Assembly: GCF_013466785.1 (NCBI RefSeq) | Contig: NZ_CP059163.1 | Coordinates: forward strand, 1,302,001-1,366,000 | Length of the DNA stretch: 64,000 nucleotides | Source: Nocardioides marinisabuli | GTDB taxonomy: Bacteria > Actinomycetota > Actinomycetes > Propionibacteriales > Nocardioidaceae | Direction of reading: 5' to 3' | Part shown: piece after piece, positions 22,665-27,962 of the stretch | Numbering within the stretch: position 1 is the stretch's first letter | Layout: every line of letters begins with the position of its first letter | Notes under the pieces: model-generated | The model's database searches: none | Told to the model about the DNA's origin: nothing | Seen by the model: only the letters and a program-made list of their open reading frames with translations | Translations under genes and position numbers: made by a program

Positions 22665-24014
22665 TCAGGCGGCGTGGTCGATGCGGCGGGTGCCGGTGTG
22701 GTCGACGAGGTAGAGCGCGCCGTAGGGGTCGAGCCACACGAACACGCCGGGGTAGGGCTGCTTGACCCGCATGTGCCCGTGGGTCTTGACGCGGTGGTGG
22801 GTGGTGGTCATCGGCCCGTAGTTCCCGACCTCGCTCGTACCCCCGGCGTCCCCGGGTGCCCAGGGGTCGGTGTGGTCGACCTGCATCCGGTTGCTGGTGC
22901 CGGAGGAGAAGGGGAACACGTCGGCCGGCGAGATCACCCGCACGGCCCGCCTATGTCGGGCCGGGATCTCGTAGGCATCGACCGGCACCTGACCCAACGG
23001 GTCCAGCACCGGGCGGATCGTGAACCTCGCGTGCGGTCCGAGGACGTCGCGGACCCACTCGCGGGTCACCGGGCCGTGGCCCTCCACCCGGCCGATCGGC
23101 GGCAGCGGTTCGCCCGCATCGGCGATGGAACGGCCGTCGAGGTGGACCACCAGCTCGGCGCGCGGCGCCAGGGCACCGATGTCGAGGCCCTCGGGGGCGG
23201 TGCCGGGGTTCGCCAGCATCAGCACCGCCAGCACCCGCCGCTCATCGGCACTCACCGCCGTGGGGGTCGGGTCGGGCTGCTCCTCACCCACCGGCTGGCG
23301 CAGGACCTCGGCGGCATGCGGATCATCAGGCAGTCGCTCGCGCAACCGCTCCGCGACAGCGCCGATGGCGGTGTCGAGCTGCTCGATCACCGGGATCGGG
23401 GCCCGGATCAGGAACGAGGCCATCCCGTGCTCAGGCGTCCCGATCTTCTTCGCGAACGTCGCCCGCCGGGCACGCTCCTCCTTCTCCCGCGCCAGCTCCG
23501 GTGCCGCAGCCGCGACCTTCCCGACCACCAGCGCCTCGAACCGGGTCCAGGTGATCCGCCCGTCCGCGGACTCCGCCACCTCGCCATCGACCCAGCCCGC
23601 CTCGAGGGCGTCGAGCTCGCGGGTCTTCGAGACCACGAACCGGGCATACGAGGCACGCACCTCCCCAGCCAGCACCCGCCCCCACAGCACCGGGTGGCGG
23701 TCCTGCAGGTCCTGCGCATCCGCGATCAACGCCGCGGCCGCATACGTGCTGCGACCGATCCGCGCCCCCAACAGCGACGCCGCGAACTCACTCACCGGCC
23801 GCGTGCCCGCACCGCCGTACTGCCTGACCTGCTCCCGCCCCGGCTTCGACACCTCAACAGGGTCCAACTTGTGGTCGGGATCGTTGAGCACCGCCCACCG
23901 GTACGCCACCACCAGCATCTGCACCTCCGCCTGCTGCGCGGTGGTCGCGAGCGCGGCAGCAGTGTCGAGGACAGCGTCCTCCGACATCTCCCCCACCACC
24001 GGCTTCCCGAGCAT
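22665..24014 (-). CDS. DUF222/13E12-family protein with HNH nuclease domain
   Basis: The protein has 449 residues from the ATG at 24014; the frame is open to 24146 and the start is not certain. The N-terminal ~300 residues are the helical DUF222 (13E12 repeat) region. The C-terminus is an HNH-type nuclease fold with RMQVDHTDPWAPGD and, about 25 residues later, NYGPMTTTHHRVKTHG. These proteins are multicopy in actinobacterial genomes, often near mobile DNA. Their role is unproven. It borders the AT-richer stretch that follows and may mark one edge of an acquired segment. Confidence 0.88.
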   Translation of the reverse strand: MLGKPVVGEMSEDAVLDTAAALATTAQQAEVQMLVVAYRWAVLNDPDHKLDPVEVSKPGREQVRQYGGAGTRPVSEFAASLLGARIGRSTYAAAALIADAQDLQDRHPVLWGRVLAGEVRASYARFVVSKTRELDALEAGWVDGEVAESADGRITWTRFEALVVGKVAAAAPELAREKEERARRATFAKKIGTPEHGMASFLIRAPIPVIEQLDTAIGAVAERLRERLPDDPHAAEVLRQPVGEEQPDPTPTAVSADERRVLAVLMLANPGTAPEGLDIGALAPRAELVVHLDGRSIADAGEPLPPIGRVEGHGPVTREWVRDVLGPHARFTIRPVLDPLGQVPVDAYEIPARHRRAVRVISPADVFPFSSGTSNRMQVDHTDPWAPGDAGGTSEVGNYGPMTTTHHRVKTHGHMRVKQPYPGVFVWLDPYGALYLVDHTGTRRIDHAA

Positions 24015-24160
24015 GAACCCACTCAAGCACCAGCCACCGACACTGAGGTCGGTCGCGAACTCGCACTGTGCAGAACGGCGACGAGCACTGCCTTTCGCCG
24101 CTAGAGTGCGCCCCGCGACTGTGTCTAATCGCCGCATCGGGGTCAAGTTTCCCGTCTCGG

Positions 24161-25513
24161 TCAGCTTTGATGCAGTGTGCGGTGGCTCGAGAACCGGGGT
24201 GCGGTGGCGGGGCCGAACGCTGCTACCCGGCGGCCAACGAGCTCGGACACGCTGAGGCTCAGCGCCGCGCTCTCGGCATCACGGTGCGCCACGAGGTGTC
24301 CCTCGTCGTCGACAGCGATGTATCCGTGTTCGAAGAGGGCGTCACAGCCGAGCCTGCACGCCAGCATCGCGGCCGAGGTGAAGTCGAGGCGCTCGGCTTC
24401 ACCCAGGGAGTATCGCGGTGCGATGTGCGCCGCGACGAGAAGTCGCGGTGGGAGTAGGCGATCACAGATGGCGCATGGGGCTTCGGTGCGGTCGCCCAGG
24501 AGGTGCTGTCGAAGAAAGCGTTGCTCCCGTCGGACAGCGATCAGGGCGATGCCGTCGGTGGCGGTGTCGCGCGGCCGAGGAAATCTGCTTGCCTTTGGGA
24601 TGGTGGCCGGGGCAGGAGAGTCCGCGGTCATGCGAGGTCCGCGGCCGGGGTTGTTCGCGCTCTTGGCCTTCGCGACGCAGGTAAGGCACGCCGGGAGACC
24701 GCGCATCTGGTCGTTGGTGGCGAGCAGAGGTGGCTCTCCCAGCAGCCGGTCGTCGGCGCCGCGGAACCAATGGGAGCAGTCTAAGAAGTGCCGCATCCTG
24801 ATCGGGGATCCGTTCGGCTCCTGGGTCTCTCGGTCAATCGGCACCTTTACCCACTCGATTGTGGGCCAGTCGAACGACTCCTGCCGGCCTTGGCGCGCGG
24901 CAAAGAGCCGAGCCAACTCCAGAGCAGGCAGGTATTGCTCTACGGCGGCGCGACCGTTCTCGAACCTGACGCCCTCCTGCTCAAGGACGTCGTTGGGGTC
25001 GTCGTTTCGGTCGGGGTTGCTCCAGCGGAAGCCGCTTCCGTGTCGTTGTCCGCCAGATGTGAGCACCCTGACGGCGTTCGGGCAACGTGGGCAGTTCTTG
25101 ATGTGGCTACCCAGACCTCGCGAGTGGACGTCGACCAACGACCCCACATCGCCATAGGTGGTCCATCGACCCGCCGGAATGACTGACATGAGTGTGTGGA
25201 GCGCGGCGAACTCGTCAGCCTTCGATGGCGGTCGGAGGAGGCGGAAGCGGGTATCGCTAACTCGCTCGGCCCAGCCCTCATCCTTGAGTACGCGGTGTGC
25301 CTGGCGACGGATGGCGTCGTTCTCGGGCATCGTCCGCCCCGACTCGGCGGGAGGCCCGGCCAGGTCGGCGATGAGCCACTTGAGCGCACCGCGGGGTGTT
25401 GGCTCATACAGCCTGGTTTGATCGCCGCGGTCGTCGGTGGCGATGTCCCACATCCTGGCGTACAGGTCATCGAAGTCGAGTTCGTATGTGGCGGCACGCA
25501 GGGTGGGCGACAT
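24161..25513 (-). CDS. ATL (alkyltransferase-like) domain fused to an HNH-type nuclease
   Basis: This 450-residue protein has three parts. Residues ~98-190 look like an MGMT/ATL winged-helix domain: HTLMSVIPAGRWTTYGDVG, the pattern NCPRCPNAVRVL where MGMT has PCHRV, and LEQEGVRFENGRA at the end. The alkyl-acceptor Cys position is replaced by Asn/Ala, as in ATL proteins that bind O6-alkylguanine without repairing it. A Cys-rich middle follows (C246, C276, C279). Residues ~345-410 have CAIC, LLVAAHIAPRYS and CRLGCDALFEHGYI, an HNH-like module with a Cys-Asp variant of the final ligand. It is less GC-rich than its neighbours. The start may be the GTG at 25552 instead. Confidence 0.75.
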   Translation of the reverse strand: MSPTLRAATYELDFDDLYARMWDIATDDRGDQTRLYEPTPRGALKWLIADLAGPPAESGRTMPENDAIRRQAHRVLKDEGWAERVSDTRFRLLRPPSKADEFAALHTLMSVIPAGRWTTYGDVGSLVDVHSRGLGSHIKNCPRCPNAVRVLTSGGQRHGSGFRWSNPDRNDDPNDVLEQEGVRFENGRAAVEQYLPALELARLFAARQGRQESFDWPTIEWVKVPIDRETQEPNGSPIRMRHFLDCSHWFRGADDRLLGEPPLLATNDQMRGLPACLTCVAKAKSANNPGRGPRMTADSPAPATIPKASRFPRPRDTATDGIALIAVRREQRFLRQHLLGDRTEAPCAICDRLLPPRLLVAAHIAPRYSLGEAERLDFTSAAMLACRLGCDALFEHGYIAVDDEGHLVAHRDAESAALSLSVSELVGRRVAAFGPATAPRFSSHRTLHQS

Positions 25514-25631
25514 GTGTCGACAGCGTACGGGGCCTGACGGGCCGGCACTCACAGATCGCCCGGGCGAACGCCGTCGCTCCGCGCAATGCGTGGGTTCTCT
25601 GGCAAGGTAGGGCTGAGCTCCCCTAAGGGAT

Positions 25632-25646
25632 CCGCGTCAGACGCGG
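25632..25646. terminator. Short perfect hairpin downstream of the small membrane gene
   Basis: CCGCGTC-A-GACGCGG is a perfect 7-bp inverted repeat about 100 bp downstream of the small membrane protein's stop. It lies in the 230-bp gap before the ATL-HNH gene on the same strand. A further GCACAT/ATGTGC dyad lies at about 25681-25696. They may separate or regulate the two genes. There is no T-tract. Confidence 0.35.
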
Positions 25647-25743
25647 CCGGTAATCCAGGTGACGGGTCTGTACTCTGTGTGCACATCAGATGTGCGTCTT
25701 TCTGACGCTAGTACGCGGACCCTGGCCCGTCATCGAGGGGCTT

Positions 25744-26217
25744 TCACCGCTCCTCTACATACTTGAGGACTTGCGCCCGCTGACGTCGCTGGCCGACCCT
25801 GCTGTGCCAGTCGTTGCGCAGCCACATATGGACTCTCGCCTCGGCTCGATCTAGTTCATCTGAGACAGCGCTGCCGTTGACCAAGATCAACCCGTGCTCG
25901 GGCTCTTCCTCGGTAGCGTTCCAGAAGGCCTCGGCTGCCTCAGACAGCGAACCAATGATGGATTCCGGAACCCCAACTTCGCGGAGATGAACGCGTAGTC
26001 GCCCGAGGTACACCTGAAGCTGCACCCAACCGTCAAGAGCGTCTTTCGACCAAACCTGACGGCGCATGTCCGCTAGAAGATCTCCAGCTGCAACTCGGCG
26101 AGAGTATCCCGAGTTCGACCTCTGAAGAAAAAAAGTCGTTAGGGCACCGAGCAACAGTGTCACGATTGGGAGGATGCGGTCGAAGACGTCCACAAGGCGA
26201 GGTTCCCATACGTTCAA
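25744..26217 (-). CDS. Small single-pass membrane protein, unknown function
   Basis: This 157-residue protein has one N-terminal transmembrane helix (ILPIVTLLLGALTTFFLQRS, residues ~15-34). A ~120-residue cytoplasmic or coiled part follows (SEAAEAFWNATEEEPEH, DRAEARVHMWLRNDWHSRVG). The start is uncertain: TTG at 26217 or GTG at 26196. The region contains a run of seven A/T bases (26124-26135 region) and is clearly AT-richer than the rest of the window, suggesting transfer. It lies upstream on the same strand of the ATL-HNH gene and may be its partner, but nothing in its sequence says so. Confidence 0.6.
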   Translation of the reverse strand: MNVWEPRLVDVFDRILPIVTLLLGALTTFFLQRSNSGYSRRVAAGDLLADMRRQVWSKDALDGWVQLQVYLGRLRVHLREVGVPESIIGSLSEAAEAFWNATEEEPEHGLILVNGSAVSDELDRAEARVHMWLRNDWHSRVGQRRQRAQVLKYVEER

Positions 26218-26392: not shown

Positions 26393-26466
26393 GCGGACGT
26401 GGTGTAGTTGCAGCGCGCTTCCCTTCCAGGGAAGAGGTCGAGGTTCAAATCCTCGCGTCCGCTCCA
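26393..26466 (+). tRNA. tRNA-Gly(TCC)
   Basis: The 74-nt sequence folds as a cloverleaf. The acceptor stem pairs GCGGACG with CGTCCGC and is followed by T and an encoded CCA. The D-stem is GTGT/GCGC with wobble pairs. The anticodon stem is CTTCC/GGAAG with loop CTTCCAG, giving anticodon TCC (Gly, GGA codons). The T-stem is CGAGG/CCTCG with loop TTCAAAT. tRNA genes often serve as integration sites; the accessory genes lie directly to its left. Confidence 0.96.
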
Positions 26467-26488: not shown

Positions 26489-27013
26489 TCACTGCAGGTT
26501 CGCGTGCCGCCGGTGCATCTCCTCGCGAGTCGCCAGGTCGCCGGCGTCGATCGCCAGCACCGCCGCGTCGAGCGTGAGCAGCGCGGCCTGCTCGTAGAGG
26601 CTGCCGCCGAACTGCACCGACGCCGAGACCGGTACGTCGAGCGTGACGTCGGCCAGGCTGCGCAACGGGCTCGGGCCGGCCGTGGTCACCAGCGCGACGG
26701 CGGCGCCGACCCCGCGGGCGGTCTCGGCGTGGTGCCGGCTCACCGCGGTCGTGCCCGAGGCCGAGAGCACCAGCAGCGCGTCCCCGGCGCTGATGGACGG
26801 GGCGGTCGCCTCGCCGACGACGTGCGCGCGGTGGCCCAGGTGCACCAGCCGCATCGCCGCCATCCGCGCCACCAGCCCCGACCGGCCCTGGCCGGTGCAG
26901 AACCAGGTCCGGCCCGGCTCCCGCAGTTCTGCGACCAGACGGTCGAAGGCGTCCTGGTCGACCTCGGCCAGCACCCCCGCGACCTCGTCGACGACACGAC
27001 GGATGGCGCTCAC
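26489..27013 (-). CDS. SIS-domain sugar-phosphate isomerase (HxlB-like)
   Basis: This 174-residue single SIS domain is the size of 6-phospho-3-hexuloisomerases. It has CTGQGRSGLVARMAAMRLVHLG as the first sugar-phosphate loop, GDALLVLSASGTTAVS as the Ser-rich second loop, and the C-terminal SLYEQAALLTLDAAVL helix. It would isomerise a ketose or aldose phosphate. The GTG start overlaps the stop of the epimerase gene by 4 bp, so the two are coupled. Its 3' end lies 22 bp from the tRNA 3' end, on the opposite strand. Confidence 0.88.
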   Translation of the reverse strand: MSAIRRVVDEVAGVLAEVDQDAFDRLVAELREPGRTWFCTGQGRSGLVARMAAMRLVHLGHRAHVVGEATAPSISAGDALLVLSASGTTAVSRHHAETARGVGAAVALVTTAGPSPLRSLADVTLDVPVSASVQFGGSLYEQAALLTLDAAVLAIDAGDLATREEMHRRHANLQ

Positions 27014-27630
27014 GACGCCGCCCCTGCCAGGGCGCGGCCGGCGACGGCGTACCGGGCGCCGGCGGCCGAGATCCGCTCGAGCCCCTCGTCGGTCACGCCC
27101 CCGTCGACGCCGGCCGGCCAGCCGCGCCCGCGCGCTGACTCGACGAGTCGCAGCCGGTCGAGGTCGGCCAGTTGCCCGGGCTGGCCGGGCGGGGTCAGCA
27201 GCACCAGCAGCCCGTCGGCGTCGGCCTCCCGCAGCCGCGCGAGCGCGAGCGGCTCGTCGTGGACCGCCAGCCAGACCTCGGGCGCCTGGCGCCGGCTGCG
27301 GCGTACGAGGTCGACGACGTCGTCGCGGCCGTCGCACTGCAGCGTCACCCTGCCGATGCCCCGCTCGGGCAGGGCGGCCAGGTCGCTCTCGAGGTCATCG
27401 ACCATCAGGTGCACGTCGAGCCGGACGTCGGGGAGGCCTGCCAGCTCGTGCACCTCGTCGAGGCCCACCCCGGCCTGGCCGCGGTAGGAGCCCTCGATGC
27501 GGTCGGCGTGCACCCAGTGGCCCCGCTCGGTCAGCGAGCGCGCGTGGCGCAGGCGGTCGGCGGCCGGGACGGCGATGACGCTGCCCGCCAGGGTGACGTC
27601 GAGCGCCGCGGCGTGCACGAGCAGCGTCAC
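27010..27630 (-). CDS. Ribulose-phosphate 3-epimerase-family protein
   Basis: This 206-residue TIM-barrel protein keeps all four RPE metal ligands: H41 and D43 (VHADRIEG), H74 (LDVHLMVDD) and D176 (VDGGV). Phosphate-binding VAGRALAG is near the C-terminus. The usual NPGFGGQ loop is replaced by TPPGQPGQ, so substrate specificity may differ from housekeeping Rpe; an allulose-6-phosphate- or tetrulose-type substrate is possible. The GTG at 27630 is chosen because GGAGGGG sits 7 bp upstream and because it overlaps the stop of the kinase remnant. Confidence 0.87.
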   Translation of the reverse strand: MTLLVHAAALDVTLAGSVIAVPAADRLRHARSLTERGHWVHADRIEGSYRGQAGVGLDEVHELAGLPDVRLDVHLMVDDLESDLAALPERGIGRVTLQCDGRDDVVDLVRRSRRQAPEVWLAVHDEPLALARLREADADGLLVLLTPPGQPGQLADLDRLRLVESARGRGWPAGVDGGVTDEGLERISAAGARYAVAGRALAGAAS

Positions 27631-27962
27631 GACCGGTCCCCTCCGCGCCACTCGGCGGCGGCGAGGTAGCGCGCGAACAGCTCCTCTAACGCGCCACCCG
27701 GCCGCGGCTGGGTGTCGGGCAGCAGCTCGGCGGCCCGGGCGTCACGCACGTCGCGTACGTCGTCGCCGTGCAGGCAGGCGGCCGCCTGGAGCGCGGCGCC
27801 GTCGGCCACCGCCTCGACCGAGGTCGACATATGCACCGTGGCGCCGGTGGCGATCACCCGCCCCGATGTGTTGGCGCCGACCGCAGCCGGGCCGCCCCCG
27901 CTAACCAGTCCACCGCCGCGACCCGGCCGTGGCGGGTCGCGGCACACGTAACCTCGCCCCAT
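27627..27962 (-). pseudogene. C-terminal remnant of an FGGY-type carbohydrate kinase
   Basis: The last ~95 residues resemble the C-terminal end of FGGY sugar kinases: VSGGGPAAVGANTSGRVIATG, VEAVADGAALQAAACLHG, then an acidic DVRDARAAELLPD and LEELFARYLAAAEW. The ~400 residues of the N-terminal lobe, with the sugar-binding site, are missing. Upstream of the fragment the DNA belongs to the divergent gene at 27961, so this is a true truncation. Its stop overlaps the GTG of the epimerase by 4 bp, showing it was once the first gene of a kinase-epimerase-isomerase operon. It may still be translated as a leader. Confidence 0.6.

Follow-up and report, generated by a model that had tools for sequence, protein, structure and literature searches.

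A gene of Nocardioides marinisabuli, located in the 64,000-nucleotide stretch of DNA analysed here (hereafter the window), encodes a protein in which an alkyltransferase-like (ATL) domain without an acceptor cysteine (residues ~97–207) and an HNH nuclease domain (residues ~318–450) are confirmed to lie in one chain. We propose, with a probability of about 0.6 and based on sequence and predicted structure, that this ATL-HNH protein is a single-chain, NTP-independent modification-dependent (type IV) restriction endonuclease with the ATL domain as its reader.

Gene and domain organization

The gene spans positions 24161..25513 on the minus strand. Its frame starts with an ATG at 25513 and encodes 450 amino acids, which the frame, profiles, model and structural matches divide into an N-terminal domain, the ATL domain, a Cys/His middle module and the HNH nuclease. 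A methionine occupies the equivalent start position in both orthologues in the alignment of the three full-length proteins. As a single sequence, the protein matched two Pfam families, HNH_2 with E = 0.048 and the MGMT DNA-binding domain with E = 0.03, each under its curated cut-off, and a search of NCBIfam retrieved no family. Because the single-sequence matches were under these cut-offs, the domain assignments rely on profiles and structure. ATL profile A1 was built from 15 related ATL domains and HNH profile A2 from 19 related HNH domains. Both include the window protein together with relatives and thus test the family rather than the lone sequence. An AlphaFold model of the full protein, built on a 54-row alignment, had ten-residue pLDDT means of 87–98 at residues 101–210 and of 81–98 at residues 321–450, and was poor over most of residues 1–100 and 211–320. 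Foldseek with this model ranked the EVE-HNH enzyme VcaM4I first (1.3e-4) and Atl1 next (9.2e-3, probability 1.00).

The ATL domain

Profile, model, structure and alignment agree on an ATL domain at residues 97–207 (24893..25225, minus strand). The first-pass annotation of this DNA had recognized an MGMT/ATL winged-helix pattern here, which was borne out by both the profile search and the structure comparison. The best matches of profile A1 in the PDB were Atl1 (3gva, 3.2e-7) and the Vibrio ATL (2kif, 1.3e-6), with the best alkyltransferase at 8.4e-4, and the Atl1-DNA structure 3gx4 aligned to model residues 96–199 with a Z-score of 10.9 (rmsd 3.4, 97 aligned residues; second Atl1 match Z 10.5). 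The MGMT fold was found in the model. The same annotation was also right that the PCHRV acceptor site is replaced, as sequence and alignment place CPNAVRV at this position. It is part of a CPRCPNAVRV loop (residues 141–150; 25064..25093, minus strand) that holds no acceptor cysteine.

Key residues were compared in an alignment of 82 rows (the window protein, the compact relative L070 and 80 loci), to which Atl1 and the Vibrio ATL were added; the roles of Y25, R39, W56 and R69 in Atl1 are described in PMC10779285. Tyr120 aligns with the base-flipping Y25 of Atl1, and tyrosine occurs at this position in all 82 rows. Arg132 aligns with the Arg finger R39. This column contains Val in 40 rows, Gln in 31, Lys in 3, other residues in 6 and Arg in only 2, namely the window protein and its Nocardioides lacusdianchii orthologue. 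Compared with Atl1, the acceptor loop lacks two residues, so that P55-W56 of Atl1 fall in a gap. The columns flanking this gap hold Ala/Pro/Val and Trp/His/Tyr/Val/Gln, with no Cys, and in L154, a GmrSD row, a Cys precedes them by one column. The Trp of the PWHRV motif is missing from the loop of the subfamily, and R69 of Atl1 has no clear counterpart. Given the shorter loop and the lack of a clear R69 counterpart, the capacity to flip a base may have changed or disappeared.

Other features set the subfamily apart. F162-R-W164 (25022..25030, minus strand) is a hallmark of the 82-row alignment, with F162 in 81 and W164 in 77 rows, that appears in neither Atl1 nor the Vibrio ATL. A CxxC motif is present in 26/26 NucS_C-like rows, 2/2 other PDC-S11-type rows, 3/4 HNH rows and few GmrSD rows; the HNH row without the first Cys is the Aeromicrobium protein. 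In summary, the window ATL shares with Atl1 (3gva, 3gx4) and the Vibrio ATL (2kif) the fold, the helix-turn-helix, the base-flipping Tyr, the Arg finger and the absence of an acceptor cysteine, but differs from them in the missing PWHRV Trp, the shorter loop, the CxxC, the F-x-W, the fusion to a nuclease and a separate branch in the tree. The residue differences suggest that the base pocket has been re-tooled.

The domain could instead be an ordinary DNA-binding winged helix that recognizes no modified base, coupled to an HNH nuclease that belongs to some other defence or mobile-element type, such as a restriction accessory or a homing-like enzyme. The loss of the Arg finger from most of the subfamily (Arg in 2/82) and the missing PWHRV Trp fit such a role. 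However, the invariant Tyr (82/82) and the conservation of the new aromatic pair (F162 81/82, W164 77/82) are what continued selection for a pocket would produce, and the window protein itself keeps the Arg finger. In view of these residues and of the sister proteins and locus described below, we regard a plain winged helix as unlikely.

The HNH nuclease domain

The HNH (bba-Me) nuclease domain covers residues 318–450 (24161..24562, minus strand) according to profile, model and structure, and was also hit by a PADLOC HNH model (5.4e-6). The HNH-like module seen in the first pass thus holds, with VcaM4I (6yex) as the best match by both approaches: it ranked first in the PDB search with profile A2 (4.9e-12) and aligned to model residues 316–450 with Z 11.5 (rmsd 4.6, 124 aligned). 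TagI followed with Z 9.5 (rmsd 3.0, 104 aligned) and EcoKMcrA with Z 4.2 (rmsd 3.4, 80 aligned). The named top matches of a BFVD fold search were HNH proteins of giant viruses.

The active-site stretch H363 ... D391 ... E395 (24329..24427, minus strand) aligns with H224, D250 and D254 of VcaM4I, whose alanine mutants are drastically impaired (PMC7897488). All three residues are invariant in the 19 rows of A2, with E395 being a Glu where D254 of VcaM4I is an Asp. Likewise invariant in 19/19 rows are C347, C350, C386 and C390, a four-Cys site that presumably binds zinc. The structural Asn of the HNH motif corresponds to Ser380 in the profile alignment with VcaM4I.

Sister proteins of the same HNH clade bear on the role of the domain ahead of the nuclease. 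Three of them (L003, L007 and the viral-contig protein L158) match residues 1–277 of VcaM4I, from EVE through HNH (E 1.2e-30, group profile vs PDB). A verified base reader therefore precedes the same HNH domain in these proteins, which argues against a plain winged helix at this place in the window protein. By comparison, the groups of L164 and L017 match VcaM4I over the HNH part only (group profiles vs PDB), and such sister HNH groups without a recognized reader count against the restriction reading. Three further members of the clade (L015, L074, L201) have other N-terminal parts, as judged by eye. EVE-like N-terminal parts had been assigned by eye to several HNH relatives, but Pfam at E ≤10 gave EVE weakly in L007 only (0.058) and none in L003, L017, L026, L157, L158, L164, L035, L053 and L232. 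For the window protein, Pfam gave no EVE match at E ≤1.

The N-terminal domain and the middle module

Residues 1–96 (25226..25513, minus strand), absent from the first-pass annotation, form a domain of their own, which is found in other proteins too and is possibly a winged helix. A separate model had a pLDDT of 79, and, folded with two orthologues, the region gave weak structural matches (Z <8) to the winged helices of CRP (Z 6.9) and DpnI (Z 6.2). In locus L035 (5364–6848) the same domain is followed by an unassigned region and then by NOV_C within one 495-aa frame; a by-eye assignment of the unassigned region as EVE-like was dropped, as Pfam yielded no EVE and the PDB no meaningful match. 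In L053 and L232 the domain precedes a GIY-YIG-like region (assigned by eye; no Pfam match). The L053 gene (3716–5757) adjoins one for a DUF4268 protein (PDC-S11) amid transposase-like genes (by eye). A pattern-limited scan of viral contigs with the N-domain alignment confirmed nothing.

The middle module (residues 209–300; 24614..24889, minus strand) was delimited by alignment and has low pLDDT. The Cys-rich character noted earlier for this region is real, since all three full-length proteins have H242, C246, C276 and C279, and these four residues likely form a zinc site. The module also occurs in the ATL-less relatives L068 and L069.

Full-length relatives and distribution

Proteins with both an ATL and an HNH domain exist beyond the window. 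The same order of N-terminal domain, ATL, middle module and HNH was found in Nocardioides lacusdianchii (91% identity) and in an Aeromicrobium MAG (47%). The full-length architecture was present in 2/215 genomes of the genus, counting the own genome, and in 3/341 genomes of the family. Among the 96 nearest relatives, and likewise among 394 genomes of the class, it occurred at full length only in the own genome, with partial matches in 4 and 40 genomes, respectively. Genome G544 encodes the compact ATL-HNH protein L070. The relative L068 combines N-terminal domain, middle module and HNH at 58–63% identity and has no ATL, and L069 carries another helix-turn-helix (by eye) ahead of middle module and HNH, also without ATL. 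It follows from L068 that the ATL domain is a removable cassette, which favours the restriction reading, and that the nuclease can exist without an ATL reader, which counts against it; that L068 is entirely devoid of it is also what a plain winged helix would allow.

A degenerate, non-functional fusion of two unrelated domains could be suspected from the rarity of the architecture, the replacement of the HNH Asn by Ser380 and a 203-aa frame fragment in genome G576. It is very improbable, as the 91% and 47% orthologues both keep the frame, the domain order, the Cys/His sites and H363/D391/E395.

With the ATL-HNH protein as query, 50,697 phage records gave no match at E up to 0.01, and a pattern-limited scan of viral contigs with the ATL alignment confirmed nothing. 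The lack of relatives in the phage records and viral contigs scanned is a point against the restriction reading. Plasmids yielded 17 records with partial matches, none covering 80%; 16 of these matched the HNH end and one matched the ATL part in a DUF262 protein.

Locus and genomic context

Of the contextual observations made in the first pass, the AT-richer DNA was recovered as G+C contents of 66.4 and 63.7% in the bins covering 24001–26000, compared with a median of 73.9% over 64 bins, and the nearby tRNA gene as tRNA-Gly at 26393–26466. As an integration site this tRNA was discarded, given that the gene block lies on its 5′ side. The AT-richer patch also contains a 157-aa frame (25744–26217) with low GC3 and no significant family, situated between the ATL-HNH gene and tRNA-Gly. 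A gene at 27013–27651 had a match in 57/59 genomes of the synteny comparison, at 27–33% identity outside the own genome. On the other side, a DUF222-type gene (22665–24146), 14 bp downstream and on the same strand, was rejected as a partner in view of 21 DUF222 matches in the genome; another DUF222-like gene (by eye) stands beside the ATL-less relative in L068.

The window and N. lacusdianchii have a block in common at 24130..25702 (minus strand), with 88% nucleotide identity by sequence comparison, and no further match outside it was found between the window and the 15-kb locus of N. lacusdianchii. Because the similarity is confined to this block, the gene with ~190 bp of upstream DNA must reside at another locus in that species. 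There it is located between tRNA-Ala/tRNA-Ile near gyrA (by eye) and genes for an MmeI-type IIG restriction-modification (RM) enzyme, a DEAD helicase and a T5orf172 protein. In L069 (3472–12341) the HTH-middle-HNH gene lies near tRNA-Val, flanked by genes for a type ISP RM enzyme and a TrwC relaxase; this array is probably an integrative element that carries restriction as cargo. The window locus itself is no defence island, which counts against the restriction reading: the ten neighbours scanned contained no defence family and no methyltransferase, and their families are metabolic or structural. The host genome had no match to PF00145, one to PF01555 (0.56 Mb away) and one sub-threshold match to PF07669 (0.27 Mb away). 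With no methylase among the scanned neighbours and so few genome matches to these three families, a modification-blind nuclease would be without an obvious partner. The different loci of the block in the two species and the RM enzyme adjoining the gene in N. lacusdianchii are compatible with a plain winged helix on a nuclease of another defence or mobile type, against which stands the missing partner methylase at the window locus.

The context favours restriction over repair. Of the two functions suggested in the first pass, the modification-dependent defence enzyme gained ground and the lesion-directed repair nuclease lost it. In the latter, the ATL domain would find O6-alkylguanine and the HNH domain would nick beside it, as in the archaeal ATL- or AGT-endonuclease V fusions. 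Members of the ATL family do bind O6-alkylguanine and pass the lesion to excision repair, endonuclease V fusions are known (PMC10779285), and the window protein has kept both Arg finger and Tyr. A repair enzyme is nevertheless quite improbable in light of the sporadic occurrence (3/341 family genomes), the different locus of the nearest orthologue, the RM and relaxase neighbours in relatives, an HNH domain closest to restriction enzymes, and an acceptor loop and pocket unlike those of repair ATLs. In addition, the host already possesses a separate, canonical ATL, a 114-aa frame with AWWRVV in which the Arg finger is kept (by eye).

The ATL subfamily and its nuclease fusions

A scan of named contigs with profile A1 found 156 relatives; the 80 best of them were retained and classified by similarity to example proteins. 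Among these best 80 of 156 loci were 45 GmrSD-ATL proteins (3 with a RAMA-like stretch in between), 26 NucS_C-like-ATL proteins, 2 with another PDC-S11-type N-terminal half and ATL, 2 with the HNH architecture and 5 frames with ATL alone; among these five, the frame of L156 is overlapped by one that encodes GmrSD. Thus, 76/80 had the ATL with a nuclease or putative nuclease, which is no rate for ATLs in general because A1 was built mostly from nuclease-fused ATLs and is biased to such fusions. In 396 genomes of the phylum, 6 matches to the ATL profile exceeded 100 bits, 5 of them in frames of 491–836 aa and one in a frame of 151 aa, and all others stayed below 67 bits.

The NucS_C-like fusions (L036–L040, L079–L098 and others) occur in Streptomyces, Frankia, Gordonia, Blastococcus and other genera. 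Their NucS_C matches were under the Pfam cut-off and seen in 3/5 proteins scanned, and the PD-(D/E)XK assignment was made by eye. The N-terminal parts of L037 (NucS_C-like) and L073, one of each kind having been scanned, match the PADLOC defence candidate PDC-S11. In L073 (4807–6141), L100 and L107 the N-terminal half of PDC-S11 (DUF4268) is retained and the DUF4268 half apparently replaced by ATL. A fourth nuclease class of DUF4268-type fusions (L073/L100, L072/L107) was considered and rejected: they have no DUF4268 and correspond to PDC-S11 in its N-terminal half alone (L073). The sequences thus indicate at least three nuclease classes, GmrSD, PDC-S11-type and HNH, that share the ATL subfamily. 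GmrSD-RAMA-ATL proteins (L041, L044 and L047 by Pfam; L103, L105 and L119 by similarity) are candidates for carrying two modification readers behind one GmrSD nuclease.

In an ATL tree of 65 rows, a split with support of 100/99 separates 15 canonical ATL/AGT rows from all others. The tree is based on short domains, and 46 of the 65 rows are labelled as fused, including two (L140, L152) without a nuclease in their own frame. A single clade of the three HNH-linked ATLs had a p-AU of 0.257.

Comparison with known reader-nuclease enzymes

VcaM4I, the best HNH match in both sequence and structure, has the same order, with the reader (putative in the window protein) first and HNH last, and the same catalytic H/D/(D or E). 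The window protein differs from it by having ATL instead of EVE, an extra N-terminal domain and Cys/His module, and Ser in place of the moniker Asn. VcaM4I flips the modified base into the pocket of its reader, and enzymes of its kind typically dimerize through their nuclease domains (PMC7897488). A modular reader-nuclease plan (PMC7897488) also characterizes the SRA-HNH endonuclease TagI (6ghs) and EcoKMcrA (6ghc), matched above through their HNH domains; the readers of TagI and EcoKMcrA are SRA or NEco, whereas that of the window protein would be ATL. The listed NTP-independent modification-dependent nucleases prefer modified cytosines or 6-methyladenine, and most have SRA or related readers (PMC7897488).

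A type IV restriction nuclease bearing an MGMT/ATL domain is known in GmrSD with PF01035, and the GmrSD proteins found here carry the same ATL subfamily as the window protein. GmrSD is, however, a DUF262-DUF1524 nuclease with the ATL behind it, and Pfam found neither DUF262 nor DUF1524 in the window protein. PF01035 was noted in 2015 in “several” GmrSD homologues, mainly from Streptomyces, and the passages of that report concerned with it propose no reader role (PMC4619093). The archaeal ATL- and AGT-endonuclease V fusions similarly join an ATL-type reader and a nuclease in one chain (PMC10779285), but their nuclease is EndoV rather than HNH, and they are discussed as repair enzymes; the likeness is one of description. 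The partners listed for EVE comprise PD-(D/E)XK, HNH, PLD, GIY-YIG and rarely GmrSD, and no word beginning with alkyl, MGMT or ATL occurs in that article (PMC7641849). Among the literature matches listed, with subscription papers and preprints largely outside, we recognized no report of an ATL-HNH protein or of ATL with a PDC-S11-type nuclease. We rate the ATL-HNH protein as a putative reader-nuclease restriction enzyme with an unusual reader; the combination of GmrSD with PF01035 was already known.

Proposed function

The restriction reading is favoured by an HNH clade in common with EVE-HNH enzymes, an ATL subfamily shared with GmrSD and PDC-S11-type nucleases, and the RM neighbours of relatives. 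The mostly Val or Gln residue at the Arg-finger position of the subfamily and the possible change to base flipping noted above are points against it. A reader role of ATL in one chain with a nuclease is suggested by the fusions and by EVE at the same place in sister proteins. In such an enzyme the ATL domain, rather than EVE, SRA or YTH, would read the DNA, binding it via its helix-turn-helix, and may flip a modified base into its pocket. To judge from ATL ancestry only, this base would probably be an O6-modified or otherwise bulky guanine-type base in phage or other foreign DNA. The pocket would hold the alkyl group but, for want of an acceptor cysteine, could not remove it. Positioning of the DNA may be assisted by the N-terminal domain and the Cys/His module, and cutting would then fall to the HNH domain at the C terminus, which probably acts as a dimer. 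That ATL reads and HNH cuts is proposed by analogy with VcaM4I. The computation establishes the two domains, their order, the retained HNH residues, the relatives and the contexts, from which we infer base flipping, modification dependence, dimerization, cleavage and the guanine-type substrate.

Implications

If the ATL domain is indeed a reader, it would differ in fold from the known readers and be of guanine-centred ancestry. ATL-nuclease fusions could then serve to map where DNA contains O6-alkylguanine or modified guanines. DNA repair machinery would have been recruited to immunity, with a damage-reading domain reused against modified foreign DNA. More tentatively, and at somewhat less than even odds, Actinobacteria may have reshaped the pocket of an MGMT/ATL damage reader, losing the acceptor cysteine and the Trp and gaining F-x-W, and joined it to nucleases of three or more classes (GmrSD, PDC-S11-type, HNH) to sense guanine-type modified bases of foreign DNA. 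This would be a class of restriction readers outside SRA/EVE/YTH (PUA), NEco and winged-helix readers. Foreign DNA entering actinobacteria, from actinophages or other sources, would in that case bear guanine-type, purine O6-face or similarly bulky modifications.
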